From the NCBI GenBank assembly GCA_021792795.1, contig JAJYUB010000010.1, positions 1 to 64,000 on the forward strand: 64,000 nucleotides of DNA. Reading direction: 5' to 3'. The position numbers and the translations under genes are program-made. The stretch comes from Acidobacteriota bacterium (GTDB taxonomy: Bacteria > Acidobacteriota > Terriglobia > Terriglobales > Acidobacteriaceae). Below, one piece after another: positions 1,629 through 42,852 of the stretch (positions are counted from its first letter, which is position 1; the number at the start of each line of letters is the position of its first letter). The notes beneath the pieces were generated by a model. It ran no database searches. It saw only the letters and a program-made list of their open reading frames with translations, and was not told the origin of the DNA.

Positions 1629-1671
1629 TGTGACCACCATCACTGCAAACACGCGCGAGAGATTCTATGTT
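1629..1671 (+). promoter_or_regulatory. CRP/FNR-like site and -10 for the decaheme operon
   Basis: TGTGA-CCACCA-TCACT at 1629-1644, followed 21 nt later by a -10-like TATGTT at 1666-1671. If the site is centred at -41.5, the transcription start would be near 1678, which places TATGTT at -12 to -7. This matches class II activation by CRP-family proteins. The cytochrome start codon is 116 nt beyond the site. Confidence 0.55.
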
Positions 1672-1759: not shown

Positions 1760-2686
1760 ATGAAACGTTTGCTCCTTTGTGTTGCGCTGGCCGTCGGACT
1801 GGCCGGACTCTGGAATACCGGACCGGCGTATGCCGCGGGAAAGACTGGCCTGCAAGCCAACGCGCCCCAAACTCCCCCAGTGGCGACTGCCGGCGCGTCC
1901 GGCTATGTGGGCTCCGATACCTGCATTACCTGCCACGCGGAAGTGGGCAAGAGCTTTGCCAACAATCCGCATTCGAAGCTTGCTTTGCAGCACGGCGGCA
2001 AGGGCATCACCTGCGAGAGCTGCCACGGACCGGGCCAGGCGCACGTGGACGGCGGCGGAGACATCACCAAGATCTTCCTGCCCAGCAAGGCGCCCGCCAG
2101 TCAGGTCGATGCCACCTGTCTCGGTTGCCACGCGGGAGTGCATCCGAATTTCGATCGCTCGCCCCATGCCAAGGCTGGCCTGAGCTGCATCAGTTGTCAT
2201 AGCGTGCATGCCCCGCAGAGCGAACAGGCCCTGCTGAAGCTGCCGCAGCCGACGCTGTGCCTGAGTTGCCACACCGACGTGAAGGGCTCCTTCGACATGC
2301 CGTTCCACCATCCGGTGAACGAGGGCGCGGTCAACTGCACCGACTGCCACGACGTTCACGGTACGTTCCAGAACAACAATTTGAGAATTACCGCCGACCA
2401 GAACATGATCTGCACCAAATGCCACATGGATGTGCGCGGGCCTTTCGTGTACGAGCACGCTGTGGTCAAGGGGGAAGGGTGCATGGCATGCCACACGCCG
2501 CACGGCTCCCAGAACGCGCGGCTGCTGAACATGCCGACGATCAATACGCTGTGCAACCAGTGCCATAGCCAGGTGAGCGCCGATACGATCCATGGGATGA
2601 ACTCAGGATCGCAAGAGCTAACACCCTGCACCAGCTGTCACACCATGATCCACGGATCCAACCTGAATGCCGCTTTCATTCGGTGA
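1760..2686 (+). CDS. MtrA/DmsE-type decaheme c-type cytochrome
   Basis: Predicted periplasmic electron carrier that plugs an outer-membrane barrel to move electrons across the outer membrane. The 308-residue protein has a signal peptide cleaved near residue 25 (after PAYA) and ten CxxCH heme motifs: CITCH, CESCH, CLGCH, CISCH, CLSCH, CTDCH, CTKCH, CMACH, CNQCH and CTSCH. Size, heme number and an adjacent MtrB-type porin match the MtrA/PioA/DmsE family. The start at 1760 has GGAGG six bases upstream. It is the first gene of a three-gene operon. Direction of electron flow (metal reduction or Fe(II) oxidation) cannot be told from sequence. Confidence 0.93.
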   Translation: MKRLLLCVALAVGLAGLWNTGPAYAAGKTGLQANAPQTPPVATAGASGYVGSDTCITCHAEVGKSFANNPHSKLALQHGGKGITCESCHGPGQAHVDGGGDITKIFLPSKAPASQVDATCLGCHAGVHPNFDRSPHAKAGLSCISCHSVHAPQSEQALLKLPQPTLCLSCHTDVKGSFDMPFHHPVNEGAVNCTDCHDVHGTFQNNNLRITADQNMICTKCHMDVRGPFVYEHAVVKGEGCMACHTPHGSQNARLLNMPTINTLCNQCHSQVSADTIHGMNSGSQELTPCTSCHTMIHGSNLNAAFIR

Positions 2687-2740
2687 TGGGGCAAACTCCG
2701 GGTTTTGATGCATTGACGTTTTTTAAAAGTGAGGATTGAA

Positions 2741-5305
2741 ATGAAGAAAACAGAAGGGCTGTTCAATCGGCACCACCAAAAGCTCTCTCCCGCAATGGCC
2801 CAGCGTATCGCCGGGGGCATGGGAGTCGCCATATTGCTGATGGCCACGGGGGTCGCTGCCGCCCAGGTTGCGATGCCGGACACACCGTCGGTTGCCCCGG
2901 AGGGGTATACACTTCACGGTTCCATCAATCTGGGTGGGAACATGACCAGCCTGACAGGCAGTGGGGCCATGTACGACACGCTGGTCAATATGCAGTCCGG
3001 GCCGCGCGTGCTGGGCAGTTCCTTTCAACTGCAGGCGCTGCCGACCACAAAACATACCCTTGTCGATTCGCTGACGGCGTACAGCACCGGGTGGGGCGGC
3101 GATCCATACGACCTGGCCACGATGGACTTCTCCAAAGGCAAAATCTATCGGTTCTCGGGAAGGTTCCGCCGCGACCGGCAGTACTTCGACTACGACCTGC
3201 TGGGCAACCCGAATATTCCATCGGGAAAGTCGATCCCCATCGGCCCAACCAATGCGCCCACGGGTTCGCTTGCATGGCCGCAGGTGAGGCAGTCGCCATT
3301 CCTGTACAACACCGTGCGCAGGATGACGGACACGAGCCTCGCCATCTTTCCGCTCGCCAAGGTCGCGTACCACTTCGCATACTCCCAGAACGTCTTCCAG
3401 GGTCCGAGCCTCAGCCCTGGCGCGTCGAGTCCCTTCTTTGCTGCCTCGATCGGCACGAACGATCAACTGCTCGAGCAGTATCAACGCAACAGCACCGACG
3501 ATTTCGTCGGAGGGATCGACTGGAAGCCGCTGCTGAGGACCACGCTGACCTTTGAAGAGGAGGTCGACCACTATAAAGACGGCACCTACTTTACTCTGGC
3601 CCCGAGCGATTTTATCGTACAGGAGGCGAACGGAACGCCGGTGGCCCCGGGCGGCTGGGACAGCGTTACGCCTTACGGCATCGGCAGCTGCAATACGGGA
3701 AGTATGGGCGCCCCACCCTACACAATCCTGTCGCCCGCGCAGACCCCAGGCGGTCTGCCGATTATCAATCCGGCATGTAGCGTCGCCACCAGCTACCTGC
3801 GCAGCCAGCCGACGCGCATTCTGTACCCAACGGAGATTTTCCGGTTCCAAAGCTCCAGCATCCGGAACATCGCGATGAACGGCGATGTGCGCTACACCAA
3901 CGCGAATATGAACCTGCCTAACTACTACGAGAATTTTCAAGGATTGTCCGGGGCAGTCCGTTCCATTACATATACCGGAAACGCGAATGCCAAGCGGAAG
4001 GTCGTCGCTATCGACTACGGCATCAATTGGAATGCGACCAAGACGGTCAGCATTGCCGATCAGATTGTCTTCTCCAACGTCCAGCAACCCGGCATCGCGA
4101 ACATCTCCAAAGGGTCCACTCTGGTTACGCCGGCAAACCCAAATGAGACCATCAACTATGCGGGTCCGCTGGCGCCTGGAACTCCTGTCACGGTGGAGGG
4201 CGCCCCCAACGGCACGCCGCTACCGGGCTTTTTCGGACAGAAGTTCCTGACCAACAACCTGATGGCGACCTGGGATGGCTGGTCCCGCGCCACGTTCTCG
4301 CTCGCCTATCGCTACCAGACGCACACCATCGCGGAAGGCATTCCTCATAACGCTCCCCTGGCCCCAGGCGCGGACACTAACGGAACAGTCCTGATTCACG
4401 AAAACGGCGCAATCTTCAACGCCGGCCTGCGTCCCACCGAGCATTGGGACGTGAATGGCAGCATCGAACTACTGTTCGCCGACAACGCATTCACCCCGCT
4501 CACTCCGCGGCAAACGCAGCAGTACAGATTGCATACCATCTACAGGCCAAAGCCCTGGGCGACGCTGTCGGGCGCCTATAACGGCGTGGAACGGCATAAC
4601 AACACAAACAACACCGGCAAGGCCTCCGCGGCCGGACCGCTGGATCATGTCGATCATAGCCGGGTCGTGAGTGTGGGTGCGGTGATGTCGCCGAATGCAC
4701 GCTATGGATTCGATTTCAATTACTCGTACAGCGATGTGTATACGTCGACCAACATCTGCTATGACGCCGCCTCCAGCCCCACGCTGCCGGGCGCCGCGAC
4801 ACCCAGCGGCACGGCATGTCCGGGCGCGACCGTCAGGGGAACCACCTACTACGAGTACGGGCCTGTCAAGGACTTCATGGATGCTCCCACGCAGTTCGGA
4901 TCGGTGGCCCTCCATCTGTCCCCCACCAACCGGATCCACTCCAGTATTGGTTATACCGTCAGCTCGGTGAATGGCAGCCGGTTCTTCAACGATGCGCGGG
5001 ATGTCAACGGCTCGCTGGTCTCAACGTATCAGTCTCCCTATGTGAATCTTGCCTGGACGGTCCATAAGGCATGGATTGTGAGGGCGGAATACAACTTCTA
5101 CGGCTACGGCGAGGGCGGCCCTTCCGGCGCGGCTTTATGCAGCACTTCCAATCCCACGCTTACAACTCCGGTGCCAGGCGTGCCTTGCAACTCTCCCACG
5201 CTGGCGGGACTTCAGACCGGTCTCACCATCTCGCCCGCCGGCGAGACTGCGCCTCGAAACTTTCATGCAAACAATGTGACCATGGGTCTGCACTATGAGT
5301 TTTGA
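2741..5305 (+). CDS. MtrB/PioB-type outer-membrane beta-barrel of a decaheme conduit
   Basis: Predicted porin sheath for the upstream decaheme cytochrome. About 854 residues: a signal peptide with an Ala-rich end near residue 42, then alternating aromatic and polar beta-strand segments and a C-terminal phenylalanine (GLHYEF), typical of outer-membrane barrels. The start at 2741 is preferred over a GTG at 2729 because GTGAGGA lies just upstream. The N-terminal CxxC seen in some MtrB proteins of metal reducers is absent; the cysteines present fall later, mostly in loop-like stretches. Identification rests on barrel character, size and pairing with the decaheme gene. Confidence 0.85.
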   Translation: MKKTEGLFNRHHQKLSPAMAQRIAGGMGVAILLMATGVAAAQVAMPDTPSVAPEGYTLHGSINLGGNMTSLTGSGAMYDTLVNMQSGPRVLGSSFQLQALPTTKHTLVDSLTAYSTGWGGDPYDLATMDFSKGKIYRFSGRFRRDRQYFDYDLLGNPNIPSGKSIPIGPTNAPTGSLAWPQVRQSPFLYNTVRRMTDTSLAIFPLAKVAYHFAYSQNVFQGPSLSPGASSPFFAASIGTNDQLLEQYQRNSTDDFVGGIDWKPLLRTTLTFEEEVDHYKDGTYFTLAPSDFIVQEANGTPVAPGGWDSVTPYGIGSCNTGSMGAPPYTILSPAQTPGGLPIINPACSVATSYLRSQPTRILYPTEIFRFQSSSIRNIAMNGDVRYTNANMNLPNYYENFQGLSGAVRSITYTGNANAKRKVVAIDYGINWNATKTVSIADQIVFSNVQQPGIANISKGSTLVTPANPNETINYAGPLAPGTPVTVEGAPNGTPLPGFFGQKFLTNNLMATWDGWSRATFSLAYRYQTHTIAEGIPHNAPLAPGADTNGTVLIHENGAIFNAGLRPTEHWDVNGSIELLFADNAFTPLTPRQTQQYRLHTIYRPKPWATLSGAYNGVERHNNTNNTGKASAAGPLDHVDHSRVVSVGAVMSPNARYGFDFNYSYSDVYTSTNICYDAASSPTLPGAATPSGTACPGATVRGTTYYEYGPVKDFMDAPTQFGSVALHLSPTNRIHSSIGYTVSSVNGSRFFNDARDVNGSLVSTYQSPYVNLAWTVHKAWIVRAEYNFYGYGEGGPSGAALCSTSNPTLTTPVPGVPCNSPTLAGLQTGLTISPAGETAPRNFHANNVTMGLHYEF

Positions 5306-5355
5306 CCTGGGTCCACGGTTGTTGGCAACAGTGTAGTGGAAGAGGAGATCGAAGG

Positions 5356-5679
5356 ATGAAAACCCGAATGGCAATTGCAATCTTGAGCGTCGTGACGGCG
5401 TTGGCGGCCACGACCGTGTTCGCGCAAGGCCCAGGAGCAGCCACCTACAAGGCAAAATGCGCCATGTGTCATGCCGCGGATGGCAGCGGCGCAACGCCGG
5501 CCGGGAAGGCCATGAAGACGCCCTCCTTCAGTTCGCCGGAGATGATGAAAATGACGACTGCGGAGCTGGTGGCGGGCACGAAGAACGGCAAAGGCAAAAT
5601 GCCCGCGTATTCCGGCAAACTGACGGGCGCGCAGATCGCGGAAGTGGTCGCTTACATTCAGACCTTGCAGAAGAAGTAG
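5356..5679 (+). CDS. Small monoheme cytochrome c (conduit-associated)
   Basis: 107-residue periplasmic class I cytochrome c. Signal peptide 1-23 (VFA/Q), heme motif CAMCH, a distal methionine in GKMPAY, and a C-terminal helix VVAYIQTLQKK. The start at 5356 follows a GAGGAGATCGAAGG ribosome-binding site. It is the third gene after the decaheme cytochrome and barrel, 50 nt downstream. It could carry electrons between the decaheme cytochrome and an inner-membrane complex. A paralogue at 35294-35617 heads the second multiheme locus; 58 of 84 mature residues are identical without gaps by my count. Confidence 0.92.
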   Translation: MKTRMAIAILSVVTALAATTVFAQGPGAATYKAKCAMCHAADGSGATPAGKAMKTPSFSSPEMMKMTTAELVAGTKNGKGKMPAYSGKLTGAQIAEVVAYIQTLQKK

Positions 5680-5845: not shown

Positions 5846-6366
5846 CTACTGTGCGGATTCAGTTGCTGCCACTGGCTGCAATTCAAACAGCAACAAAGAG
5901 CGGGCCGTGACGTCGTAGGATTCACCGGTCGCAAATGTTTCCTTCGCGCTGGATTTTTCTCCTGTGTCCTCAAGAATGTTGGTGTCGATGAGTCGAGACC
6001 ATGCGCTGCCGCCGGGATGTTTCGGCAGGGTGAACGTTACCAGGTCGAAATGACCGTTGACGACCATGAGCAAGGTCGCCTCATGCCCGCGCTGACGGAT
6101 GCCGGTCGCCTGGGCGCGACCGTCCATCAGCATTCCAAAGCAGCGCATGTCGCTGTCGCCCCAGTTGGCATCTTCCATCTCGGAGCCATTGGCGTTGATC
6201 CATGTCACATCTTTCACGCCCAGTTCCCGGCTAAACTCACCCGTCAGGAACAGGTTGCGACGAAGGACCGGGTAGCGATGGCGCAAAGCCGTGAGCTTTC
6301 GGACAAACTCTACAAAAGGCCGGCTTTTTCCAGCAGGCCCCAGTCCACCTAGCTAATGTCGTTGAA
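5846..6366 (-). pseudogene. glgX: Decayed 3' end of a glycogen debranching enzyme (glgX)
   Basis: Only the C-terminal part of a GlgX/isoamylase-type protein remains. The intact frame from about 6313 to 5846 encodes VEFVRKLTALRHRYPVLRR, then DVTWINANGSEM, DANWGDSDMRCFGMLMDG and a tail FTLP...LIDTN, all GlgX C-terminal hallmarks. Upstream, the family's ISWVDW segment appears as ATT AGC TAG GTG GAC TGG, so a tryptophan codon has become a stop, and VDWGLLEKAGL is then out of frame with the rest. The fragment thus carries a nonsense mutation, a frameshift and loss of the catalytic barrel, ending against the DedA gene. Confidence 0.8.
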
Positions 6367-19658: not shown

Positions 19659-20528
19659 CTACAGAAACCGCGGGACCGTGCCCGTCGCAATTCGGGAGGG
19701 TCTCCGGGGCGGGCTGGAAAAGCCGGCCAGGCGTACGGTCAGCAGCATCGCGGGCACAAGAAACACGGTTGAGTTGAGCACCCACATGATGACGCCGGCG
19801 GCGACCTGGTCCGAGAGCGGAGAGACGTGGAATGGGTTGGGCCCGGAAACATAGAACTGATAAATCGGCCGATCGCAGAATGCGAGAAACGCGGAGAGCG
19901 CGGTGTTCACGATGTCCGCGGAGAGAAGGTACACCAGGACCATCCAGCCGTTGTAGCGAGCGCTGCTGGGCCACGGATTCAGCACCACCCGCCAGAAAAG
20001 CAGCGCCGTGACGAGAAAACATATGTGTTCAAAGTCGTGGACATTTTCGTTGCGCAGGGCGTAATCGTATGCTTTGGGAAGGTGCCAGCCGAGAAAGACT
20101 GCATTGAACGCGAGCCAGGAGACTATAGGACCGGCAAGGAAATGGCCGACGGCGCGCAACCAGCGCAGGCCGATCAGCGGTCCGGCGATGCGCTGGACGC
20201 TCCATCGGGGCAGTCCGCGCAGCAGAGGCACCACAGGAGCGCCGAGCAGCACGAGCGGCGGGACGGCGGACATCAGCAAAAAGTGCTGCACCATGTGGGC
20301 GCCGAGCAACGTGTCGGCGAATCCATCGATCGGCGAGGCGATGGCGAGCCACAAGACCGCCATGCCGACGACAAAACTCGCGAGGCGCTCGATGGTGAAA
20401 TAGGCCGGCCTGGTCCGGCGAATCGCGAGCCAGCCACGCACGTAGACCACGGACACAACGATGACGCTGACGGTCAGCCAGAACGGCGGCGACCAAGCGT
20501 CAAAAATTGCCTGCGTTGCTGTGGACAT
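19659..20528 (-). CDS. ctaG: Cytochrome c oxidase assembly factor CtaG (caa3 type)
   Basis: 289-residue polytopic membrane protein of the caa3_CtaG family, needed for maturation of Bacillus-type cytochrome c oxidase. Seven hydrophobic segments; conserved histidines in GAHMVQHFLLMSAVPPL, NAVFLGWHLP and DFEHICFLV, candidates for copper or heme contact. It is the last gene of the minus-strand respiratory cluster, 187 nt after the cytochrome b gene. The gap contains palindromic repeats, so it may have reduced expression relative to the upstream genes or its own promoter. Confidence 0.9.
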   Translation of the reverse strand: MSTATQAIFDAWSPPFWLTVSVIVVSVVYVRGWLAIRRTRPAYFTIERLASFVVGMAVLWLAIASPIDGFADTLLGAHMVQHFLLMSAVPPLVLLGAPVVPLLRGLPRWSVQRIAGPLIGLRWLRAVGHFLAGPIVSWLAFNAVFLGWHLPKAYDYALRNENVHDFEHICFLVTALLFWRVVLNPWPSSARYNGWMVLVYLLSADIVNTALSAFLAFCDRPIYQFYVSGPNPFHVSPLSDQVAAGVIMWVLNSTVFLVPAMLLTVRLAGFSSPPRRPSRIATGTVPRFL

Positions 20529-20562
20529 GGCATCCTCGCTTCGGTGCTTACCTTAGTTTCTC

Positions 20563-20660
20563 CCCACTCAAGCCAACAGATGGCTTGAATGGGCCGCCCT
20601 CGGATTTTTGTTGCGTCCTCGGAAAGAATACGAACCCAGGTTAGCTACGCGAACCTGGGG
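20563..20660. repeat. Palindromic repeat pair R2 between cytochrome b and ctaG
   Basis: CCCACTCAAGCC (20563-20574) pairs with GGCTTGAATGGG (20582-20593) with one mismatch. A second hairpin pairs CCCAGGTT (20635-20642) with AACCTGGG (20652-20659) perfectly. The first belongs to the same family as 46241-46271 and 57003-57047. Inside an otherwise co-directional operon these hairpins could act as processing or attenuation points. Confidence 0.65.
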
Positions 20661-20715
20661 CGCCCGCAGTCCTACGCAAACTGCAAATCCTCTCTAAGAA
20701 TGCATGGATGACGCG

Positions 20716-22215
20716 CTACTGCTTGCCGTCCTGACGCGGCTGCGCAAGCGGCGCGCCCTCCGCCAATGGACGGGCCAGGTCGCGCGCCGGCATTTGATTG
20801 CCGTTCAGCGTTTCGAGGAAACCGACCAAAGCCGTCGTTTCCTGCGGACTCAATGCGCTGCCATACGCGGGCATGTTCCCGCTGCCCTGCAGCACCTGGC
20901 GGATCAACTGGCTTTCCGTCATCTGCGTCGCCACGCGATTCAGTTCAGGTCCACGCTTGCCTCCGACACCATCGAGCGAGTGGCAATTGCGACATTGCAT
21001 TTGTTGAAAGACGACCGCGCCGCGCCGTTCCAGCGGAGTCCGGTCCTTCAGATATTTCGGCTGCACCGGGTCCGCGCTCCACGCATTCATGACCGGGCTC
21101 CACGGCGGATTTTCTCCCAGGCTGGTGAGGATGGCGAGCGAGACGGCAATCGCGCAAACCATTAGCACAGCGACAGGGCGACGCGACCAGTGTTTCTCGC
21201 CTTCTCCCGCGTACAGCGGCAGTCCAAGCATCACGCAGATCACCGCAACGGGCGCGATGAGAAGAAGCGACGTTTCCAGAGCGGGCGGAGCCAGCGCGAA
21301 GATCGCGTAGATCCAAAGGAACGCCACATCCGGCTTGGGCGCGGTTTGGATGATGGTGGGATCGGGCGGGCCGCTGGGCCCGATGGGACCAAAGAAAATG
21401 GCGCAGGCCATGATTGCCAGAAGAATGGCGGCGGAAAACATGACATCTTTCCAGGCCGCGTCCGGAACGAAGGGGACACCGTCTTGATGGGTCTGCGCTT
21501 CGTATTCCTGAATGTAGGTGCTGCGGCGCACCAGCCGGCCCGGCATGGGCCACTCGTTGATGCCGAGGCGGAGGACCATCCACACATGCACGCCGACCAG
21601 GGCAATCAGAATTCCGGGAATAATAAACACGTGCAGCGCAAAGAATCGCGAGAAGGTGGTTGCCCCAATGATGGGACCGCCGAGCATGAAGTGGACCAGC
21701 CACGCGCCGATGAGAGGGACCCTCCCCATGATGGACGCGCCAATCCCCAATCCCCAATAGGCATCCTGATCGAAGCGAAGCACCTGGCCGGTGAAGGCCA
21801 TGCCGAGCGTCAGCAGCAACAGGAACACGCCGACGATCCAGGTGAGTTCGCGGGGAAACTTATACGCGCCGAACAGGAACACCTGGGTCATGTGAATCAG
21901 GACGATGGCGATCATGAAATCCGATCCCCATCCGTGCAGCGCGCGCAGGAACCATCCCAGCGTCAGGCCGTGGTTCAAGAAGTTCAGGCTGTTCCAGGCG
22001 TCGCGCGCGGTGGGCGTGTAGACCAGCGCCAGCAGGATGCCGGTGACCACCTGCAACATCAGGATCACGGAAGCCGCGCTGCCAAAGACGTACCACCAAC
22101 TGGCGCTGTTTGCCGGAATTGGATGCTCGGCTGCTTCGGTGACGGGTTTGGCGAAACCCAGGCGACGGTCGAGCCACCGATAGAGCGCAAGGCCCTTTTC
22201 CTTTATCCCTGGCAT
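20716..22215 (-). CDS. Fused cytochrome b (b6-like) and cytochrome c subunit
   Basis: Membrane core of a quinol:cytochrome c oxidoreductase with its own cytochrome c at the C-terminus. The b domain has two helix heme-ligand pairs: histidines 14 apart in ALHGWGSDFMIAIVLIH and 15 apart in ALHVFIIPGILIALVGVH. The second spacing is that of b6-type proteins. Both N- and C-terminal b domains are in one chain. A single-heme domain (CRNCH, distal Met in GNMPAYG) follows. The Qo-site PEWY position appears as PDVA. The ATG at 22215 is used; a GTG at 22224 is possible. It overlaps the Rieske gene. Confidence 0.92.
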   Translation of the reverse strand: MPGIKEKGLALYRWLDRRLGFAKPVTEAAEHPIPANSASWWYVFGSAASVILMLQVVTGILLALVYTPTARDAWNSLNFLNHGLTLGWFLRALHGWGSDFMIAIVLIHMTQVFLFGAYKFPRELTWIVGVFLLLLTLGMAFTGQVLRFDQDAYWGLGIGASIMGRVPLIGAWLVHFMLGGPIIGATTFSRFFALHVFIIPGILIALVGVHVWMVLRLGINEWPMPGRLVRRSTYIQEYEAQTHQDGVPFVPDAAWKDVMFSAAILLAIMACAIFFGPIGPSGPPDPTIIQTAPKPDVAFLWIYAIFALAPPALETSLLLIAPVAVICVMLGLPLYAGEGEKHWSRRPVAVLMVCAIAVSLAILTSLGENPPWSPVMNAWSADPVQPKYLKDRTPLERRGAVVFQQMQCRNCHSLDGVGGKRGPELNRVATQMTESQLIRQVLQGSGNMPAYGSALSPQETTALVGFLETLNGNQMPARDLARPLAEGAPLAQPRQDGKQ

Positions 22216-22799
22216 GATGCGCACCCCGGCCCGGCAACGCTGGCTTCTGTCGATAAAGTGGGCAATTCACCCGCCCAGATGAGAAGTTGATTGCCGGCGA
22301 TTTTGTATTTGTATTCATACAGCCCGCGCGGCGGAGGTCCGGCAGCGACCGAGCCATCCTGGTAGTACACGCCGCCATGGCAAGGGCACATGAACAGTTC
22401 GGATTGAGGGAACCAGTGTACCGGGCAGTCCATGTGGGCGCAGTTGATGGCGAACACCTGGAATCGATTGCCGGCAATATGCCGCACCCAGCAAGGCAGC
22501 GTGCGTGTCTGGCCGTCCGCCGGCGTGCCCATCGGATTGCGATATTTTCCGAGGCGCGTTTCTCCCGGTGGAAACCGATCGAGGGTCCCGACGGAGACCC
22601 AGTTGTTGTAGCTTGCATTTCGCTTGAAGAATGGGCCGAACAGATAGCCGAGAACAGGCGCCGCCAAAACAGCGCCCACGGCGCCGTTCAGCAGCAGGGA
22701 GACCTTGAAAAGAAATTTTCTGCGCGAGTGTTCGCTCGGCTGATTCAGCGGATTGTCGCTGCTCGGGTCATCGATCGAATGGTTCAAAGGGTCCTCCAC
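22203..22799 (-). CDS. Rieske [2Fe-2S] protein of the b/c complex
   Basis: Iron-sulfur subunit that takes one electron from quinol at the Qo site. About 198 residues: an N-terminal SRRKFLFKVSLLLNGAVGAV anchor with a twin-arginine, a long periplasmic domain, and cluster motifs NCAHMDCPVHW and FMCPCHGG giving two Cys and two His ligands plus the disulfide cysteines. The second GTG (22799) is chosen because AGGAG lies five bases upstream; the frame also allows GTG 22805. It sits between the diheme cytochrome and cytochrome b genes. Confidence 0.92.
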   Translation of the reverse strand: MEDPLNHSIDDPSSDNPLNQPSEHSRRKFLFKVSLLLNGAVGAVLAAPVLGYLFGPFFKRNASYNNWVSVGTLDRFPPGETRLGKYRNPMGTPADGQTRTLPCWVRHIAGNRFQVFAINCAHMDCPVHWFPQSELFMCPCHGGVYYQDGSVAAGPPPRGLYEYKYKIAGNQLLIWAGELPTLSTEASVAGPGCASCQG

Positions 22800-22829
22800 C
22801 GTCACTCCTGTTGCGGCACTTCGTTGGTT

Positions 22830-23612
22830 TCAGTTCCTTTTCGGGGGATTTTGACCGGTCGGCGGCGAACTGGGAAACGGCTGGCCGGGAAACCGAACGC
22901 GGTGCGATCCCAACCACGCAACCACGTCGGTGACTTGCTTGTCGGTCATGGGTTCGTCGAAACCATCGCCGCGCCAGTCCGGCATTCCCTCACCGGGAAG
23001 ACCGGCAACCACAATGTCGCGCAATCCCCGATTGCCGATCAGCGACAGGTAGGTTGGATCGACAATGGAGCCGGCCACGCTGGACTTCGAGGCGGCACCG
23101 GTCGCAGCCGCGCCAGTCCCATCCGCGCCGTGACAGCGGGCGCAATGGGCTTGAAATGCCGTTTTGCCCGCGACAATGTCGGGGGCCGTTGTCGCCGTGT
23201 AGCCGGGCGGATGGGTCCCATCCAGAATGCCGGGTCTCCCCCAATGCGCGATCATTCCGTTGACAATGTTTTCCACCTGCTGGCCCGTCAACATGCCGCC
23301 GCTGGACTGCGCAAAGGCATGCATGGACTGAAGCGACACGCCGCCGGCAACGATGGGGACCATGCGATCGTGTCCCGCCCAGGCGAGATACACGGGATTG
23401 TCGAGAGGCAGGGCGGGGCCGTTCAATCCGCCGTCGCCGTGACAGGCGGAACAATTGTCCTTGTAGAGAATCGCGAAGCCTAGGGTTTGGTCCGGGCGCA
23501 ACGTTTCCTGGCGAAATCCAGGCTTGCCCGGCAGATGACTACAACCCTCCGCGGCAAGCAGGAGGATGGCGGCGACGATGCTTGCGCCCGCAGTTTGCAA
23601 ACTTGTCCTCAT
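22830..23612 (-). CDS. Diheme cytochrome c lipoprotein
   Basis: 260 residues with a signal sequence ending in a probable lipobox (LLAAEGC), then two class I cytochrome c domains with CSACH and CARCH. Later segments (DRMVPIVAGG, GEGMPDW) supply possible distal methionines. Location between the oxidase genes and the Rieske gene suggests it shuttles electrons from the b/c complex to the oxidase. The start overlaps the stop of the preceding gene as ATGA. Confidence 0.9.
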   Translation of the reverse strand: MRTSLQTAGASIVAAILLLAAEGCSHLPGKPGFRQETLRPDQTLGFAILYKDNCSACHGDGGLNGPALPLDNPVYLAWAGHDRMVPIVAGGVSLQSMHAFAQSSGGMLTGQQVENIVNGMIAHWGRPGILDGTHPPGYTATTAPDIVAGKTAFQAHCARCHGADGTGAAATGAASKSSVAGSIVDPTYLSLIGNRGLRDIVVAGLPGEGMPDWRGDGFDEPMTDKQVTDVVAWLGSHRVRFPGQPFPSSPPTGQNPPKRN

Positions 23613-24472
23613 TGGGTGCGGTCCTCGTCATCCGCTTCCTCTTCCACGCCCGGCGAGATCAAACCTGCGCGTTCCGCAAATGGCCGCGCCTGGAATTGCG
23701 GAGTGCGCACGCGAACATGCAGATTCACCACAAAGCCGGCCACCAGGCCGAAGGCAATCTGCGATGCAATGAACCAGAGCCAGTCGATCCGCCGGTTCAT
23801 GGTTGGATTGACGGCCTCCAGGCCCGCATACAAAAGCCCGCTCCAGAAAATGGGAGCCAGAAACCCGGCAGTGGCAATCGGTTCCCACGGAAACATGGGA
23901 AGGATGGCGCCGTAGAGAAGGCCGACCAGTACCGACGCAAGAACATGCACCACGCCGGCCACCAGCAAGCCTTCGAGATGGAAGGAACTGAGGAATGCGG
24001 TGCTCCTCTCCGACCATCCAGGGATGGCCATCGCCGCCAGCAGGTTGGGAGCGTACCAAAGACTGTGAAAACGAACCAGCCCAAAGATCGTCGCCGGGGC
24101 AATCATGGCGACTCCGCCGGCCAGGCCTCCCTTGACGCCGGCGCTCAGCGTATATCGTTCCACCGGAAGGAAGCTGCGGTGCGAGGCGGCGGCAGGCAGG
24201 CGCGCCACTTGTTCGCGCGAGCTTTTGATTTCGATGATTTCAGTGGTCACCGATACATACTCGTGCCGCTCGTGCGGAAAAATATTTCGGAACCAGCCGA
24301 CGCAGGCGAACACGATCAGAACGAACCCGAGTGCGCTGATGGCCCAGGCCGTCACCAGGCCGGCAAACAGCAATGTCGCCCCGATCGCCAATATAAATGG
24401 CCACGCTGTGGGGGCGGGCATGTGAATGGCATGGACGGAGGAACGGCCGTTCTCAGTTTTGGTATTCATCAT
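23609..24472 (-). CDS. Polytopic membrane protein of the oxidase operon
   Basis: About 287 residues, seven or so hydrophobic segments, no heme motif. The N-terminal part (HMPAPTAWPFILAIGATLLFAGLVTAW, then WFRNIFPHERHEY) resembles small subunit-IV-like proteins of caa3 oxidases. The C-terminal five-helix part (GLAGGVAMIAPATIFGLVRF onward) I do not recognise. It lies directly after ctaE and overlaps the diheme cytochrome gene by 4 nt, so it is probably a structural or assembly factor of the oxidase or supercomplex. ATGs at 24472 and 24469 are both possible. Confidence 0.75.
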   Translation of the reverse strand: MMNTKTENGRSSVHAIHMPAPTAWPFILAIGATLLFAGLVTAWAISALGFVLIVFACVGWFRNIFPHERHEYVSVTTEIIEIKSSREQVARLPAAASHRSFLPVERYTLSAGVKGGLAGGVAMIAPATIFGLVRFHSLWYAPNLLAAMAIPGWSERSTAFLSSFHLEGLLVAGVVHVLASVLVGLLYGAILPMFPWEPIATAGFLAPIFWSGLLYAGLEAVNPTMNRRIDWLWFIASQIAFGLVAGFVVNLHVRVRTPQFQARPFAERAGLISPGVEEEADDEDRTQ

Positions 24473-24485
24473 GTTTCTCGCATCG

Positions 24486-26800: not shown

Positions 26801-26825
26801 GGCTTGCGCCTCTCGCTTTCTCAGC

Positions 26826-34915: not shown

Positions 34916-35293
34916 GGGGACCCCTCTGGATTTCTCTGCGAGAGAAGTGTACTTGCCGGCGGGGAGGTTGGGCCACCCGATGCGACGGGGTTGCAACCGC
35001 AGTCTTCCCGGCCGGTGGTATCGCTCCGTACTTTTATGGCCTATGGCCGGTCACACTAGGCAAGCCATCGATCCGGCAGTTCCGGTGCATGGGAGCGGCC
35101 TGGCAAAATCCAGGCTGGTTTGGGGCCGCGCGTGCCTGCATCCGCGCGTGGCAATTGGCGATTCCTTACGGCGTGATATCCGTCACAGCAACTCGTCCGC
35201 CAAGTTTTATATTCTTCACAGTTGAGAACGAAGCAGTATCGTACATGCAATTGCTTGGCAAGAACTGACTCCACATAGTCAAAGGACCCCTGT
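34916..35293. other. Divergent promoter region of the second multiheme locus
   Basis: 378 bases with no supported gene between the Tat hydrolase and the small cytochrome c. It contains a CRP-like site at 35173-35188 with a -10-like TATATT at 35209-35214, a small inverted repeat CCTGG...CCAGG near 35100-35115, and AAAGGA before the ATG at 35294. Confidence 0.65.
35173..35214 (+). promoter_or_regulatory. CRP/FNR-like site and -10 of the second multiheme operon
   Basis: CGTGA-TATCCG-TCACA at 35173-35188, then 20 nt, then TATATT at 35209-35214 (five of six matches to TATAAT). This is nearly the same arrangement as the site at 1629-1671. The start codon of the small cytochrome c is 105 nt downstream of the site. 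Confidence 0.6.
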
Positions 35294-35617
35294 ATGAATC
35301 GACACAAAACAGTATTGGCCACTCTGGTGTTCGCCGGTTTGGCAACATGCACCGTGCTGGCGCAAAGCAGCGGGGCGGACGTCTACAAAAGCAAATGCGC
35401 GATGTGTCACGCCGCCGACGGCAGCGCGAGCTCGCCTGCCGGGAAGGCGATGAAGGTGCCGTCCTTCCTGGCGCCGGAGGCGAAAAAAGCGTCGACGGCC
35501 GACTACATCGCGATCGTGAAAAATGGCAAAGGAAAGATGCCGGCCTATGCCAGTAAGCTGACGGGCCCGGAAATCGCCGGGGTTGTCGCCTACATTCGCA
35601 CGTTGCAGAAGAAGTAG
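35294..35617 (+). CDS. Small monoheme cytochrome c, paralogue of the conduit-associated one
   Basis: 107 residues, signal peptide 1-23 (VLA/Q), heme motif CAMCH and distal Met in GKMPAYA. It has the same length and the same cleavage position as the cytochrome at 5356-5679, with 58 of 84 mature positions identical by ungapped count. AAAGGA lies eight bases before the ATG. First gene of the second multiheme locus. It may be a shared or interchangeable soluble carrier between the two loci. Confidence 0.93.
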   Translation: MNRHKTVLATLVFAGLATCTVLAQSSGADVYKSKCAMCHAADGSASSPAGKAMKVPSFLAPEAKKASTADYIAIVKNGKGKMPAYASKLTGPEIAGVVAYIRTLQKK

Positions 35618-35739
35618 TCGCGGAAGCGGGGCGGAAGATGCGGTCATCGTGTAGATTCGGGAGTCGCAACTCGTTCTCTCCCGCATGGAGAAGCGTCCCG
35701 GATGGGTGCGAAGCCCGATTGAGGACGGCCTCTTTCACG

Positions 35740-37011
35740 ATGGAGGTCCTCCGTAACCGATATGCGCCTGTGGGGCGCGAGCGAAAGTCTTACGGCGACC
35801 GATGCGGCGCCGCGAAACCTGCGATCGGCGCGAGATGGCTGGCCGCAGGTTTTTTTGTCTTGTGGATGCTGGCAATCCCCCGCGCGATGCTGGCCAAGGA
35901 TGCGGACTGCCTGTCCTGCCACGCCGACAAGACGATGCAGGACGCGTCCGGGAAAAACGTCGGCGTGGATGCGACCGCGTTTCATTCCAGCATTCACGGC
36001 AGCCTGGCTTGCAGCGATTGCCATGCTTCCATCCACGAGTATCCCCATCCGGACCATCCGGCGGCGGTCGAGTGCGCGACCTGCCATGCGGACCAGGCCA
36101 AGGGACTCAAGGGCAGCGTGCATGCCAAGGCAAGCGCGCATCCCTGCGCCAGTTGCCATGGCGACGCGCATGCGATCTTCGCCAAAGACGATGTAAGGTC
36201 GGCGGTCTATCCGTTGAACATTCCACGGACGTGCGGGACCTGCCATGGCGATCACTTGCTGGCAAAGAAGTACGGACTGCAGAATGTCTATTCGGCGTAC
36301 ATGGATTCGATCCACGGTTATGCGGTCAGCAAAGAGGGGCTGCTGGTGGCGGCGAACTGCATGAGCTGCCACGGATCGCACCACATCCTGGGCCACAATG
36401 ACCCTAAAAGCCCCACGTACAAGACGAACATCCCGAACACCTGCGGGACCTGTCACGGAGGTGTGGAGGACCAGTATCTTGGCGGAGTGCATGGCAAGGC
36501 GGTCGCGAGCGGCGATCTGAAGGCGCCGGTTTGCACGGACTGCCATACGGCGCACGCGATCCTGCAGCCGACGATGGCGAGTTTTCGTATGCAGTCGACG
36601 CCGATTTGCGGCTCGTGCCATCAGGGCAGGTTCGCCACCTACGGAGACACGTTCCACTCGCAACTGGGTCTGCTGGGCGGGTATGTGCAGACGGCGCGTT
36701 GCTGGGACTGCCATGGAGCGCACGAGATTCTGCCCGCGTCCGACCCTCGGTCTCCGGTTGCGCCGGCGAACCTGATCGAGACCTGCGGCAAGTGTCATGC
36801 GGACGCGAACGCCAGCTTTGTGCAGTATCAGCCGCACGCCAACCCACGCGATCGAAGGCTGAATCCGGCGCTTTACTACATCAGGCTGTTTATGAACCTG
36901 TTGCTATGGAGCGTGCTGGGATTCTTCGCTCTCCATACCCTGCTGTGGTTTCTTCGTTCGAGGCGGGAGCAGGCCAAGAACGGACACGCCGGGGAGGCGA
37001 AACATGACTGA
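35740..37011 (+). CDS. Membrane-anchored 11-heme c-type cytochrome
   Basis: About 423 residues with an N-terminal export helix (RWLAAGFFVLWMLAIPRAMLA), eleven CxxCH motifs (CLSCH, CSDCH, CATCH, CASCH, CGTCH, CMSCH, CGTCH, CTDCH, CGSCH, CWDCH, CGKCH) and a C-terminal transmembrane helix (LFMNLLLWSVLGFFALHTLLW). It would expose a periplasmic heme wire tied to the inner membrane. The start is uncertain: ATG 35740 has only a distant GAGG; GTG 35770 is another option. It overlaps the next gene, a b-type cytochrome, by 8 nt, so the two probably form one complex. Confidence 0.88.
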   Translation: MEVLRNRYAPVGRERKSYGDRCGAAKPAIGARWLAAGFFVLWMLAIPRAMLAKDADCLSCHADKTMQDASGKNVGVDATAFHSSIHGSLACSDCHASIHEYPHPDHPAAVECATCHADQAKGLKGSVHAKASAHPCASCHGDAHAIFAKDDVRSAVYPLNIPRTCGTCHGDHLLAKKYGLQNVYSAYMDSIHGYAVSKEGLLVAANCMSCHGSHHILGHNDPKSPTYKTNIPNTCGTCHGGVEDQYLGGVHGKAVASGDLKAPVCTDCHTAHAILQPTMASFRMQSTPICGSCHQGRFATYGDTFHSQLGLLGGYVQTARCWDCHGAHEILPASDPRSPVAPANLIETCGKCHADANASFVQYQPHANPRDRRLNPALYYIRLFMNLLLWSVLGFFALHTLLWFLRSRREQAKNGHAGEAKHD

Positions 37012-37879
37012 GCCGACAGAGACCGGGATTGTGCCCGCAACGCAACCGGAAGCGAAGAAGGAGGAGACATACTATCTCCGATTCACGTTGCCGCAGCGAT
37101 ACCTGCATGTGGTGCTGTTCACCTCTTTTCTAGGCCTGGCGGCGACCGGGTTGCCGATGCGCTTCAGCGACAATGCCTCGGCACGTTTTTTCGCGCGCGC
37201 CGTGGGCGGCTTTGGGGCCATCCTTTTCCTGCACAAATTTTGCGCCATCGTGCTGACGCTGGCGTTTCTCTATCACCTGAAAGACATCTTTACCCGGGCC
37301 GCGATGCATAAGGAAAAGGGGATGTTCTGGGGCCCTACCTCGATGGTGGCCAATTGGAAGGACGTGAAGGACCTGGTGGGGCACCTGAAGTGGTTTGTGG
37401 GGTTGGGTCCGAGACCCCAGTTCGATCGCTACGCCTATTGGGAGAAGTTCGATTATTGGGCGGTCTTCTGGGGGATGATCGTCATCGGCTTTTCCGGGTA
37501 CGCGATGTGGTTCGCTCCATTTTTCGCGAAGTTTCTGCCGGGATGGGCATTGAACGCAGTGCTGGTCGTCCACGGCGAGGAAGCGCTGCTCGCCATTCTG
37601 TTCATCTTTTCCATCCACTTTGTCAACACCCACCTGCGACCTGACAGTTTCCCCATGGACATGGTGATTTTTACCGGCAAGGAGACGGAAGATGAGTTTA
37701 AGAAAAAGCGTCCCCTGGAGTATGAGCGCCTTGCCCGCCAGGGAAAGCTGGAGGAAAAGGTCGCCGACAAGCCGGTGTATTGGTGGGTGAATTTCGCCAG
37801 GGTGGTAGGATTTACCGCGATCTTGATTGGGCTGCTCCTGCTGGTCTTGACATTGATCGCCTATTTCGGCACTGTATAA
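37004..37879 (+). CDS. b-type membrane cytochrome (formate dehydrogenase gamma/DUF4405-like)
   Basis: 291 residues, four main transmembrane segments plus a C-terminal one, with histidines placed for two hemes b: LPQRYLHVVLF, FLHKFCAIVLTLAFLYHLKDIF, VVHGEEALLAILFIFSIHFVNTH. This layout is shared by quinone-reactive b subunits. Overlap with the 11-heme gene and the following NapC-like gene suggests a quinol:multiheme cytochrome complex analogous to Cbc-type complexes of Geobacter; that comparison is inference. Confidence 0.85.
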   Translation: MTEPTETGIVPATQPEAKKEETYYLRFTLPQRYLHVVLFTSFLGLAATGLPMRFSDNASARFFARAVGGFGAILFLHKFCAIVLTLAFLYHLKDIFTRAAMHKEKGMFWGPTSMVANWKDVKDLVGHLKWFVGLGPRPQFDRYAYWEKFDYWAVFWGMIVIGFSGYAMWFAPFFAKFLPGWALNAVLVVHGEEALLAILFIFSIHFVNTHLRPDSFPMDMVIFTGKETEDEFKKKRPLEYERLARQGKLEEKVADKPVYWWVNFARVVGFTAILIGLLLLVLTLIAYFGTV

Positions 37880-37898
37880 CGCACGAAAAGAGGGAATG

Positions 37899-39323
37899 AT
37901 GTTCGGTGCATTCGAGAAGAAGCTGAGGCCAGTCCTTTTTTATGGGAACAACCCGTTAAGTTTGATCGGCGGCGCGCTGACGAGCGCTTCCGCGTTTGTC
38001 TTGGTCGGCTTCTGGGTGGTCCAGATCTTTGGACATGGCGGCTCGAAAAACCCATATCTCGGCCTGATTTTCGACGTATTTCTGCCGGCGCTGTTTGTTC
38101 TTGGGCTGGTCCTGATTCCCATTGGCATCGGGCTGCGGTACAGCCATCTCAAAGCCACGGGACAACTGCCCTCGGTCTATCCCCAGATTGACCTGCAGGA
38201 CCCGGTCTTCCGGCGCGGCATCGAGGTCATGATTGCCGCCACCTTCATCAACTTCGTGATCGTCGGCACGGCCAGCTATCGCGGCGTCTCCTACATGGAT
38301 TCGCCGAACTTCTGCGGGCAAACGTGCCATGTGATGGCGCCGCAGTGGGCCGCGTATCAGGTCTCTCCGCACTCGCATGTGGCCTGCGTGGAGTGCCACA
38401 TCGGCTCCGGATTCGATGCCGCCGTGGAAGCCAAAATGAACGGCACCAAGCAACTGGTGGAAGTCGCGTTTCACACCTATCCCACGCCGATCCGGGCATC
38501 GCTTTCAGTGCTGCGGCCGGCGCGGGCGACCTGCGAGCAGTGTCACATGCCCACCAGGTTCGTCGGCGACCGGCTGCTGGTCAAGACGGCGTTCGGCGAC
38601 GACGAAAAAAATTCCATCACCCGGACCGTGCTGGTGCTGCATCTTGGCGGGGTCGATTCTCTTTCGCAGTTGAGCGGGATCCACGGCCATCATCTGAACG
38701 ATTTCGAGTACGTCGCCACGGACGCGACCGACCAGACCATCATTTCCGTGAAGGCGCGCAACGCGGACGGCTCCGTCACCGACTACGTGAGTTCCGGCTG
38801 GAAAGGGCCGGTGAAGGGAGTGGAACGGGTGATGGACTGCATGGACTGCCACAACCAGGCGACCCACATTTCCCCGACGCCGCAGGACGCGATCGACGAA
38901 GCGATGCTGGACAGCAGCGTGGACCCGGCGCTGCCGTTTGTCCATAAAGAAGGACTGCAACTGATCCAGGCGAATTATTCCTCGCAGGCGGAAGCGGCCG
39001 CCAAGATCGCGAACGGACTGGAGCAGTACTACAAGTCGCAATACCCGGCGGTGTGGAACAGCCAGCGCGGCCAGGTGCTGGAATCGGCGCGGACATTGGC
39101 CGCCATCTACAAGCGGAATGTATTCCCTACCATGAATGTGAAATGGGGCACCTATCCCAACAACATTGGGCACAACGACTTTCCCGGTTGCTTCCGCTGC
39201 CATGATGGAAACCATGTTTCAAAAGATGGAAAAACGCTGACCAACGATTGCAGCGTTTGCCACAATCTGCTGGCCGTGGATGACAAGAACCCCAAGGTGC
39301 TGACCGATCTGGGCATGCAGTAG
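37899..39323 (+). CDS. NapC/NirT-like membrane multiheme cytochrome c
   Basis: About 474 residues. Three N-terminal hydrophobic segments precede a periplasmic domain with five CxxCH motifs (CVECH, CEQCH, CMDCH, CFRCH, CSVCH) and one CX3CH-type motif, FCGQTCHVM, at the position of the first NapC/NrfH heme. It is likely a quinol dehydrogenase subunit. The second ATG (37899) is preferred since the AGAGG site would be only two bases from the first (37896). It is last in the locus. Confidence 0.88.
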   Translation: MFGAFEKKLRPVLFYGNNPLSLIGGALTSASAFVLVGFWVVQIFGHGGSKNPYLGLIFDVFLPALFVLGLVLIPIGIGLRYSHLKATGQLPSVYPQIDLQDPVFRRGIEVMIAATFINFVIVGTASYRGVSYMDSPNFCGQTCHVMAPQWAAYQVSPHSHVACVECHIGSGFDAAVEAKMNGTKQLVEVAFHTYPTPIRASLSVLRPARATCEQCHMPTRFVGDRLLVKTAFGDDEKNSITRTVLVLHLGGVDSLSQLSGIHGHHLNDFEYVATDATDQTIISVKARNADGSVTDYVSSGWKGPVKGVERVMDCMDCHNQATHISPTPQDAIDEAMLDSSVDPALPFVHKEGLQLIQANYSSQAEAAAKIANGLEQYYKSQYPAVWNSQRGQVLESARTLAAIYKRNVFPTMNVKWGTYPNNIGHNDFPGCFRCHDGNHVSKDGKTLTNDCSVCHNLLAVDDKNPKVLTDLGMQ

Positions 39324-40433: not shown

Positions 40434-40506
40434 AGGAAAACTCCTGAATATCGATTCATTGTGGACGCGCTGTCCGTTTCTGGATGTGCCAACTGGCACC
40501 AATGCT

Positions 40507-40522
40507 TGTGATCTCCATCACC
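40507..40522 (-). promoter_or_regulatory. CRP/FNR-like site upstream of universal stress gene 1
   Basis: TGTGA-TCTCCA-TCACC, embedded in a longer interrupted palindrome CTTGTG (40505-40510) / CACAAG (40522-40527). The distance to the start codon (73 nt) equals that of the site before the second universal stress gene. I see no good -10 hexamer at the expected place. Confidence 0.5.
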
Positions 40523-41651: not shown

Positions 41652-41667
41652 TGTGACGGCAATCACA
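41652..41667 (-). promoter_or_regulatory. Consensus CRP/FNR-family site TGTGA-N6-TCACA
   Basis: TGTGACGGCAATCACA matches the classical CRP consensus half-sites perfectly. It lies 73 nt before the universal stress gene 2 start. On the minus strand a -10-like TCTATT occurs at 41628-41623, 23 nt beyond the site. Confidence 0.65.
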
Positions 41668-41733
41668 TTTCTTGCAGGGCGGCAGGCAGGCCCTGTCTGC
41701 AAGCGCCAGGAGACTGCGGGAAGAGACGACAGC

Positions 41734-41777
41734 CGTGACGATCGTCACGCAGGAAGCGAAGGAAAACGCTTTATCCT
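41734..41777 (+). promoter_or_regulatory. CRP/FNR-like perfect palindrome and -10 of the phosphotransacetylase gene
   Basis: CGTGACGATCGTCACG (41734-41749) is a 16-bp perfect palindrome of the GTGA-N6-TCAC type. A -10-like TATCCT (41772-41777) follows 22 nt later, the same geometry as at 1629 and 35173. The start codon is at 41890. Confidence 0.6.
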
Positions 41778-41889: not shown

Positions 41890-42852
41890 ATGTCAACCCA
41901 AACCGGCACCTCGGTGAGCCGCTTTGACGTACTTTTGGAACGCGCCCGGCAACTGCCGCCCATTCCCGTTGCGGTCTGTTATCCGCTGACGAAGGTTGCC
42001 CTGGCCGGGGCCCTGGAGTCCGCCGTTTGCGACGTGATCCGGCCCATCCTGGTGGGACCGAAGGCGAGGATTCAACGTCTCGCGGAGGCGGAAGGGTTCG
42101 ATATCGGGTCGTGCGAAATGATCGACGCCGAAGACGAAACCCAGGCGGCAAAGATCTCCGTGGAACTGTGCCGCACCAAGGTGGCCGACGCGCTGATGAA
42201 GGGGAGCCTGCACACCGATGCGTTTATGCGTCCGGTGCTGGCCAAGGAAACCGGGTTGCGCACGCTGCGCAGGATCAGCCATTCCTTTGTGATGGAAACG
42301 CCCGCTTACGATCGCATCCTGTTGATCACCGATGCCGCCATCAATATTCTGCCGACGCTGGACGATAAGGTGGACATTGTGCAGAATGCCATCGACCTGG
42401 CACATGTGCTGGGAGTTCCGATGCCGAAGGTGGCGATTCTGTCGGCGGTGGAGACGGTCCAGTCCAGCATTGTTTCGACCATCCACGCGGCGGCGCTTTG
42501 CAAAATGGCGGACCGGGGGCAGATCACCGGAGGCGTTCTGGATGGCCCGCTTGCATTCGATACCGCTGTCAGCCCGGAAGCGATGAAGATCAAACGCCTG
42601 GTTTCCGCGGTTGCGGGGCAGGCGGACATCGTCGTGGTCCCCGACCTTGAATCCGGCAATATGCTGGCCAAGCAGTTGGAATATCTTGGCGGGGCGAGCC
42701 TGGCGGGAATCGTGACGGGCGCTTCCGTGCCTATTATTCTGACCAGTCGCGCGGATTCTGCCAAGACGCGCATGACCTCCGCGGCGGTCGCCTTGCTGAT
42801 GCATGCGGACGCGTCGTTGCAAGACACTTCACGCAGCGAGCCGGAGTGTTGA
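41890..42852 (+). CDS. Phosphate acetyl/butyryltransferase
   Basis: 320-residue member of the Pta/Ptb family, transferring acetyl or butyryl between CoA and phosphate. Conserved segments are GPKARIQRLAE, ADALMKGSLHTDAF, RRISHSFVME, ITDAAINILPTLDDKVDIVQNA, GGVLDGPLAFDTAVS and VVPDLESGNMLAKQL. The short form lacks the DRTGG regulatory part of long Pta. No acetate kinase gene is adjacent. Acetyl versus butyryl preference cannot be told. Co-regulation with universal stress genes resembles anaerobic-survival modules of other bacteria. Confidence 0.9.
   Translation: MSTQTGTSVSRFDVLLERARQLPPIPVAVCYPLTKVALAGALESAVCDVIRPILVGPKARIQRLAEAEGFDIGSCEMIDAEDETQAAKISVELCRTKVADALMKGSLHTDAFMRPVLAKETGLRTLRRISHSFVMETPAYDRILLITDAAINILPTLDDKVDIVQNAIDLAHVLGVPMPKVAILSAVETVQSSIVSTIHAAALCKMADRGQITGGVLDGPLAFDTAVSPEAMKIKRLVSAVAGQADIVVVPDLESGNMLAKQLEYLGGASLAGIVTGASVPIILTSRADSAKTRMTSAAVALLMHADASLQDTSRSEPEC

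Follow-up and report, generated by a model that had tools for sequence, protein, structure and literature searches.

A three-gene operon near the start of the window

The stretch of DNA analysed here (the window; 64,000 nucleotides, positions 1 to 64,000 of the forward strand of contig JAJYUB010000010.1, assembly GCA_021792795.1) comes from an acidobacterium of the family Acidobacteriaceae. Near its start it carries genes for a ten-heme cytochrome, an outer-membrane barrel and a monoheme cytochrome, which were read as an MtrAB-type conduit for electrons across the outer membrane. The operon and the site in front of it are as follows:

1630..1643, operator of Crp/Fnr type, GTGACCACCATCAC, 130 bases upstream of the decaheme ATG
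1760..2686, + strand, decaheme c-type cytochrome of the DmsE/MtrA family with a Sec-type start (sequence, TIGR03508 and 6R2Q match)
2741..5305, + strand, outer-membrane beta-barrel with the MtrB fold (profile comparison and AlphaFold model; alternative start GTG 2729)
5356..5679, + strand, monoheme class I cytochrome c (Cytochrome_CBB3; Pfam E 3e-14)

The decaheme cytochrome is 308 amino acids long, contains ten CxxCH motifs and scored 259.5 bits against TIGR03508 (DmsE-family decaheme cytochrome; curated cut-off 192.2). Its best match among solved structures was 6R2Q chain A, the MtrA of the Mtr complex (E 4e-36, residues 45-302), and a profile of 74 decaheme relatives matched the same chain with E 5.8e-51. 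In the PDB sequence copy this chain bears the molecule name 'Cystathionine beta-synthase', apparently an error of deposition or copying. All ten CxxCH motifs are invariant in the alignment of the 74 rows, and at least ten additional histidines are invariant or nearly so, a pattern that would fit bis-histidine ligation of the hemes. The signal-like start, called without a predictor, suggests a periplasmic location.

The starts of the two following open reading frames as listed (GTG 2729 for the barrel, TTG 5302 for the monoheme cytochrome) were not taken as exact. GTGAGG stands before ATG 2741, which is therefore the likelier start of the barrel and gives 854 amino acids (858 from GTG 2729); ATG 5356 was preferred over TTG 5302 because of the signal-peptide-like start found there. 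The monoheme cytochrome is likely a periplasmic shuttle. Promoter and terminator scans around the operon gave results at chance level.

The gene set named in a preliminary description of the locus was borne out by TIGR03508, the MtrB fold and Cytochrome_CBB3, and so were two absences that it had noted, that of an MtrC/OmcA partner and that of an N-terminal CxxC in the barrel. Across the genome, which is 98.2% complete, no match to the OmcA/MtrC family (TIGR03507, E<=0.001) was found, in a search confined to this family of surface cytochromes, by which a cytochrome of this family lying merely beyond the window was ruled out. A DNA pattern for heme motifs run over the genome gave 83 matches against 33 in the reversed control and was too unspecific for use.

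The barrel and its decaheme partner

The window barrel contains no CxxC and ends in F; CxxC is wholly missing from 79 of 81 barrels, and a terminal F is found in 75 of 79 related barrels of more than 780 amino acids. PF11854 (MtrB_PioB) matched neither the window barrel nor any other protein of the genome, and it matched one of 30 barrel relatives (E 0.02). Neither a Pfam scan of the window barrel nor a comparison of the barrel profile with PDB sequences gave a match, and the only NCBIfam match was a weak one to the GSU2204 family (E 0.03). Profile comparison of window-type barrels (30 rows) with PF11854 members of the class (12 rows) gave 96.6% (E 5e-10, 360 columns), compared with 0.5% and 0.15% for LptD control barrels from the same class.

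The decaheme cytochrome and the barrel were modelled jointly as one read-through chain by using AlphaFold without templates (alignment of 93 rows). In the barrel region (from about residue 380) block values of the predicted local distance difference test (pLDDT) are mostly 75-94, with dips of 40-72, and approximately 26-28 long strands were counted. Foldseek ranked MtrB (6R2Q_B) first (E 1.5e-13, template-modelling score 0.67 on the target), as did VIA-align (Z 20.3, with 526 of 649 residues aligned at 3.2 A, against Z 14.7 for the second row); other large barrels, chiefly TonB receptors, ranked below MtrB. The window barrel and 6R2Q_B are 10% identical.

By profile and predicted fold, the barrel is a distant MtrB; because the MtrB/PioB sequence model gives no match, it would belong to a divergent lineage outside the PF11854 sequence family. 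A chance match or an unrelated barrel was ruled out by the fold, with MtrB at the top, and by the profile, with its distance from the LptD controls. The proposal of an MtrAB-type conduit in the preliminary description is accordingly upheld at the level of fold and profile and not at that of the sequence model.

Of 250 class genomes, 144 contain relatives of the barrel (E<=0.001), many of them matched through the N-terminal part only. A frame with ten CxxCH adjoins the barrel in 28 of the 29 loci read, the remaining locus being cut by a contig end. A further set consisted of the best 80 of 232 relatives from named records (Acidobacteria by record title, including Silvibacterium, Granulicella, Bryocella and Terracidiphilus), and here an intact decaheme frame lies no more than 300 bases from the barrel frame in 73 of 80 loci. 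Cultured relatives with the pair include Silvibacterium bohemicum S15, Granulicella rosea and Terracidiphilus gabretensis S55. Neighbours were counted in 81 loci, the window included and read to 14 kb, after single-linkage clustering of genes (cluster 1 mixes several multiheme proteins); relatives of the monoheme cytochrome occur in 63 of these loci, mostly directly after the barrel.

A tree of 65 decaheme cytochromes (sampled from 30 class loci and one in six of the named loci, as far as these contained a decaheme) comprises 43 partners of window-type barrels, 12 partners of PF11854 barrels and ten from fusions or split fusions. Each of the three groups is set apart from the rest by a branch supported at 99/94 or better, with a long-branch warning on the tree, and the decaheme clades appear to match the barrel types. 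PF11854-type barrels score above the cut-off in 23 of the 250 class genomes, and their decahemes form a separate clade. We regard the pair as a real, widespread and divergent MtrAB-type conduit of two components, without MtrC or OmcA.

The same genome encodes a second conduit on contig C70:

L041:5266-8556, single-chain decaheme-barrel fusion, 1097 amino acids

This fusion is the sole other decaheme above the TIGR03508 cut-off in the genome (200 to 206 bits). It consists of a signal-like start, ten CxxCH motifs, about 100 variable residues and a barrel-like part, some 660 residues long, with GRSW at its end. In MtrAB the C-terminal end of the cytochrome points outward (PMC7198977), whereas the barrel would be expected to begin on the inner face, which bears on the course of the variable linker in the fusion. 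Full-length homologues, the C70 fusion included, occur in nine of the 250 class genomes, in three families, and are 45-67% identical to the C70 fusion over the whole length; in a sample of the phylum the full-length fusion was found in 3 of 297. The halves are separate neighbouring genes in genome G119, where the barrel has its own signal-like start; G349 resembles this split pair, its barrel frame being cut by the end of the locus read. The fusion likely arose from such a neighbouring gene pair, and this speaks for cytochrome and barrel acting as one functional unit. The profile of the fusion is closer to the PF11854 members (95.9%) than to the window type (36%). Among the neighbours of the fusion gene nothing recurrent was seen by eye. 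A literature search, which left most subscription journals and all preprints outside, gave no report of a decaheme-barrel fusion; the available portions of the papers retrieved contain Cyc2-type fusions or unrelated wording only (PMC8415449, PMC10654088, PMC5566968). A one-chain decaheme-barrel protein would offer a single-gene conduit for structural work and bioelectronics.

Shared operator, regulator and inner-membrane heme modules

The pattern GTGA-N6-TCAC was found within 300 bases before the decaheme gene in 63 of 73 upstream regions, whereas 30 block shuffles averaged 0.3 and never exceeded 3. These regions are those of the window and 72 of the 80 named loci. Left out were seven loci that lack an intact decaheme frame beside the barrel (L105, L126, L147 and L157 begin at or close to the end of a contig, L107 and L136 are broken, and L162 has a broken frame) as well as L100, for which the upstream DNA is missing. 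The window contains seven sites (0.62 expected; largest count of 100 shuffles, 3) and the genome 72, compared with 11 for the reversed control. About 50 of the 72 genome sites were listed (to contig C95), and 19 chosen stretches as well as contig C105 were inspected, so that the genes named below are examples and not the full regulon. Downstream in the window, sites and associated genes were located as follows:

35173..35186, the same operator, 121 bases upstream of the second heme operon
35294..35617, + strand, second monoheme cytochrome c
35638..37011, + strand, 11-heme cytochrome with a hydrophobic C-terminus, start uncertain
37004..37879, + strand, membrane cytochrome b561 / FdnI-like subunit (Pfam 28.3 bits, under the 30.1 cut-off)
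37896..39323, + strand, membrane-anchored pentaheme cytochrome with a NapC/NrfH-type region, likely quinol-linked
40508..40521, the same operator, upstream of a gene for a universal stress protein (39486-40502, - strand)
41653..41748, two operators located between pta and a further gene for a universal stress protein (40679-41578, - strand)
41890..42852, + strand, phosphate acetyltransferase gene (pta), putative regulon member

The second heme operon (35294-39323) lies 30 kb from the conduit and corresponds to the last part of a row of heme genes seen in relatives. The longer row, full or partial, is present in seven loci (L092, L095, L096, L100, L110, L117 and L162) in the order 13-heme protein with C-terminal b561, monoheme cytochrome, 11-heme protein, cytochrome b and pentaheme cytochrome. 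Homologues of the membrane-anchored pentaheme cytochrome (about 480 residues) occur in 52 of the 81 loci, mostly directly after the barrel; the window copy lies beyond the 14 kb counted. NiFe hydrogenase genes and a cytochrome b561 stand ahead of the conduit in L095, L096, L110 and L162 (confirmed with Pfam and NCBIfam for L096), and operators were found near three of five hydrogenase small-subunit genes, two each in L096 and L162.

Elsewhere in the genome an operator lies 49 bases before the gene for an 11-heme-b561 fusion on contig C89 and about 90 bases before a tetraheme gene on contig C98. On contig C105 (L238:761-7789) genes for a Crp/Fnr regulator, cydA, cydB, phosphoketolase and ackA stand in a row, with operators 72 bases before the Crp/Fnr-family gene and 40 bases before the adjoining cydA. 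The association with bd oxidase, phosphoketolase, Pta and Ack suggests limited oxygen and acetate-forming substrate-level phosphorylation. Among the loci of the fusion, three of eight (L045, L190 and L192) have the operator, which is absent from the 131 bases between the C70 fusion and the contig end. Two further multiheme genes of the genome, L043:6329-7993 (nine CxxCH) and L039:1120-2055 (five CxxCH), have no operator nearby.

A Crp/Fnr-type gene neighbours the conduit in 45 of the 81 loci (Pfam was checked for one), and 36 of these 45 regulators contain the cysteines CxxC-x4-9-C, mostly with x8. The homologue encoded by the genome itself is 38% identical, and its CxxC-x8-C reads CFMCKERHTDWFC. 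In E. coli the CRP site is TGTGA-N6-TCACA and the FNR site TTGAT-N4-ATCAA; the operator found here looks CRP-like and the regulator cysteines FNR-like, and we infer that the regulator binds these operators.

Two features flank the conduit operon. An open reading frame of 146 residues (5846-6286, - strand) matches the C-terminal end of GlgX (glycogen debranching) alone (profile positions 565-687 of 688) and has the look of a gene remnant. The palindrome CCTAGCGAAGCTAGG occurs twice (321-335 and 474-488) within longer repeats, where none is expected by chance, and is possibly a dispersed element like the repetitive extragenic palindromes.

Direction of electron flow and comparison with known systems

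The operon was interpreted as a two-component MtrAB-type conduit that sends electrons out of the cell at low oxygen, with a probability of about 0.55; order and direction of flow, acceptor and oxygen sensing are what we infer from the genes and their arrangement. Quinol electrons would exit the inner membrane through the NapC/NrfH-like pentaheme cytochrome and the pairs of multiheme protein and cytochrome b561, and small monoheme cytochromes would ferry them over the periplasm into the decaheme. Placed inside the MtrB-like barrel, the decaheme would form a heme wire through the outer membrane, and its heme 10 would pass electrons to a soluble or small acceptor, for example dissolved Fe(III) at low pH or humic substances. 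A regulator of the Crp/Fnr family would turn on the conduit together with bd oxidase and the acetate metabolism of phosphoketolase, Pta and Ack. A dissolved acceptor, such as Fe(III) at low pH, would make the missing surface cytochrome tolerable.

Several observations weigh against this interpretation, beginning with the failure of PF11854 to match the barrel. In the joint model the decaheme region has low confidence (pLDDT mostly <60), and the decaheme modelled alone (mean 64) reaches Z 5.9 to 6R2Q_A, under the Z 7.6 to OcwA, so weak a result that it adds nothing to the sequence match. By rough gene calls, two of the seven operator sites in the window lie inside genes, and the same calls place the site only inside a gene in eight of the 19 further stretches. 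Eight multiheme units of the genome were inspected, of which four have the operator and three (C68, C29 and C66) have none. The FNR-type pattern TTGAT-N4-ATCAA was found in none of the 73 upstream regions, and the CRP-like operator may be that of a Crp of the cyclic-AMP type. With PF00374 (hydrogenase) one match above the cut-off was obtained in this genome, covering profile positions 1-74 only. The 13-heme protein of L096 passes PF22113 (MtrC/MtrF domain; 43.4 over 30 bits); it was taken as an inner-membrane protein because of its b561 domain, and it may have a surface role. Acidobacterium capsulatum is iron-reducing according to the text available of PMC8790237, yet stands outside the mtrA/mtrB list in the available part of PMC5900883, and the conduit would therefore not explain Fe(III) reduction family-wide. 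Finally, the window holds a caa3-type oxidase operon (19662-28067, - strand), which also encodes CtaG, a cytochrome b-cytochrome c protein and one more cytochrome c protein and could accept electrons that enter from outside.

The last of these points bears on an alternative that we consider unlikely, in which the same conduit is reversed. It would then oxidise Fe(II) or another donor in the manner of MtoAB/PioAB, and the monoheme cytochrome would supply the caa3-type oxidase with electrons or else pass them uphill into the quinone pool. The two components without MtrC would suit such a role, as would the adjoining monoheme cytochrome, which has its counterpart in Mto clusters, and the presence of oxidase genes with CtaG in the window. 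No operator site was found, however, at this oxidase region (19.7-28.1 kb), and the oxidase that is linked to the operator is of the bd type, which draws its electrons from quinol and not from cytochrome c. Crp/Fnr control is also known for pio genes, and pio-type systems can be anoxically regulated too; the third gene here, by contrast, does not encode a high-potential iron-sulfur protein (HiPIP), and the pentaheme and b561 partners as well as the hydrogenases in relatives fit a source in quinol or H2. Export was preferred over Fe(II) oxidation because the partner genes and the operator common to cydAB fit low-oxygen export better, and the closeness to Fe(II)-oxidising conduits suggested in the preliminary description was not retained.

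Somewhat less probable still is a conduit for another terminal step, either an extracellular or outer-membrane reductase (dimethyl sulfoxide (DMSO)-like, as DmsEF) or detoxifying metal reduction. The decaheme does belong to a DmsE-named family, and no acceptor-side protein was identified near it; but no DMSO-type-reductase lookalike recurs beside the conduit, among recurring clusters that are annotated in part (5-7, 10, 11 and 14 are among those not all annotated), and genes of molybdopterin type (clusters 19 and 20, which resemble xanthine dehydrogenases by eye) occur in only 4 of 81 loci, some kilobases away. A pair that conducts nothing, in which the barrel would be an unrelated porin or a sheath and the cytochrome would store electrons in the periplasm, would agree with the negative PF11854 search and with the low confidence of the joint model where docking is concerned, but is improbable in view of MtrB as the top fold match by a wide margin, the existence of fusions and the matching lineages.

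Electron export at low oxygen can be embedded in a wider scheme, which is put forward tentatively and with more doubt than belief. The class may possess three parallel outer-membrane electron wires, each with a matched barrel lineage and one of them a single polypeptide; the two-gene version would belong to a low-oxygen regulon in which ATP comes from acetate formation while surplus electrons (in relatives, electrons from H2) go to dissolved Fe(III) or humic substances. If this holds, the fusion, with its ten-heme wire, flexible segment of about 100 residues and own barrel, would be a natural one-gene transmembrane wire, and a surface cytochrome would be unneeded, the acceptor being soluble at low pH.

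Acidobacteria are among the commonest soil bacteria, and the Fe(III) reduction route of their acidophilic members is unsettled; the abstract of PMC8790237 states that little is known on the mechanisms of Fe(III) reduction in extreme acidophiles. The point made in the preliminary description, that extracellular electron exchange is implied for a group seldom associated with it, is weak. Homologues of mtrA/mtrB were listed in 2018 for 13 acidobacterial genomes, including Silvibacterium bohemicum S15 and Terracidiphilus gabretensis S55 (PMC5900883), both of which are also among the conduit loci analysed here, and Fe(III) reduction by Acidobacteriaceae isolates is described in PMC8790237. The accessible part of PMC5900883 suggests that the listed strains do not employ Shewanella- or Geobacter-like pathways. 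Excerpts of other papers report decaheme sequences in Terriglobus and Solibacter, with Fe reduction suggested (PMC3669403), counts of PioA/MtoA homologues in Acidobacteriia (PMC10654088), porin-cytochrome complexes in a Holophaga genome (PMC7399161) and PCC3 and PCC4 (PMC5566968).

With MtrAB of Shewanella (6R2Q A and B) the conduit shares an MtrA-like decaheme and an MtrB-fold barrel encoded by adjoining genes; it differs in a barrel of such low identity that is invisible to PF11854 and has no N-terminal CxxC, and in a genome without an OmcA/MtrC-family match. It resembles PioAB and MtoAB (make-up in part after the available text of PMC10654088) in having two components, no surface multiheme cytochrome and a small carrier alongside, and is unlike them in the inner-membrane b561/pentaheme module and the operator common to cydAB. 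Where PioABC has a HiPIP, the third gene here encodes a CBB3-type monoheme cytochrome. Compared with MtoAB(D) and CymA, the monoheme cytochrome adjoins and the NapC/NrfH-type pentaheme lies 32 kb off behind the same operator, a possible likeness at the domain level. Domain resemblance only likewise connects the NapC/NrfH-type multiheme anchor and the pairing of a multiheme with a b-type cytochrome to ImcH/CymA and CbcL.

Against the models for Geobacter GSU2203-GSU2204 (name OmcK, PMC13194489; its barrel, PMC13188914), the window decaheme scored 220.4 of 325 bits (NF041028) and the barrel 13.1 of 350 (NF041027), both below the cut-off; barrel relative L010 and the fusion barrel also gave weak, below-cut-off scores with NF041027. 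Unlike the Geobacter pair, the window barrel is without CxxCH. The MtrCAB 'Group 5' of Acidobacteriia, as described in the accessible text of PMC8805035, comes from the same class and has MtrA/MtrB-type genes, but includes MtrC and a downstream tetraheme cytochrome. The C70 fusion is like Cyc2 in combining heme protein and barrel in one chain, and unlike it in the number of hemes, with one N-terminal heme-binding motif in Cyc2 (PMC10654088, in the part available) and ten CxxCH in the fusion.

To the mtrA/mtrB homologues already known, the analysis adds two points of interest, the putative low-oxygen module linked by the operator and the one-chain version. Taken together, the inner-membrane module, carriers, conduit and shared operator make up a candidate path for electrons from quinol to the cell exterior, and since cultured relatives exist, electron export along it is testable.

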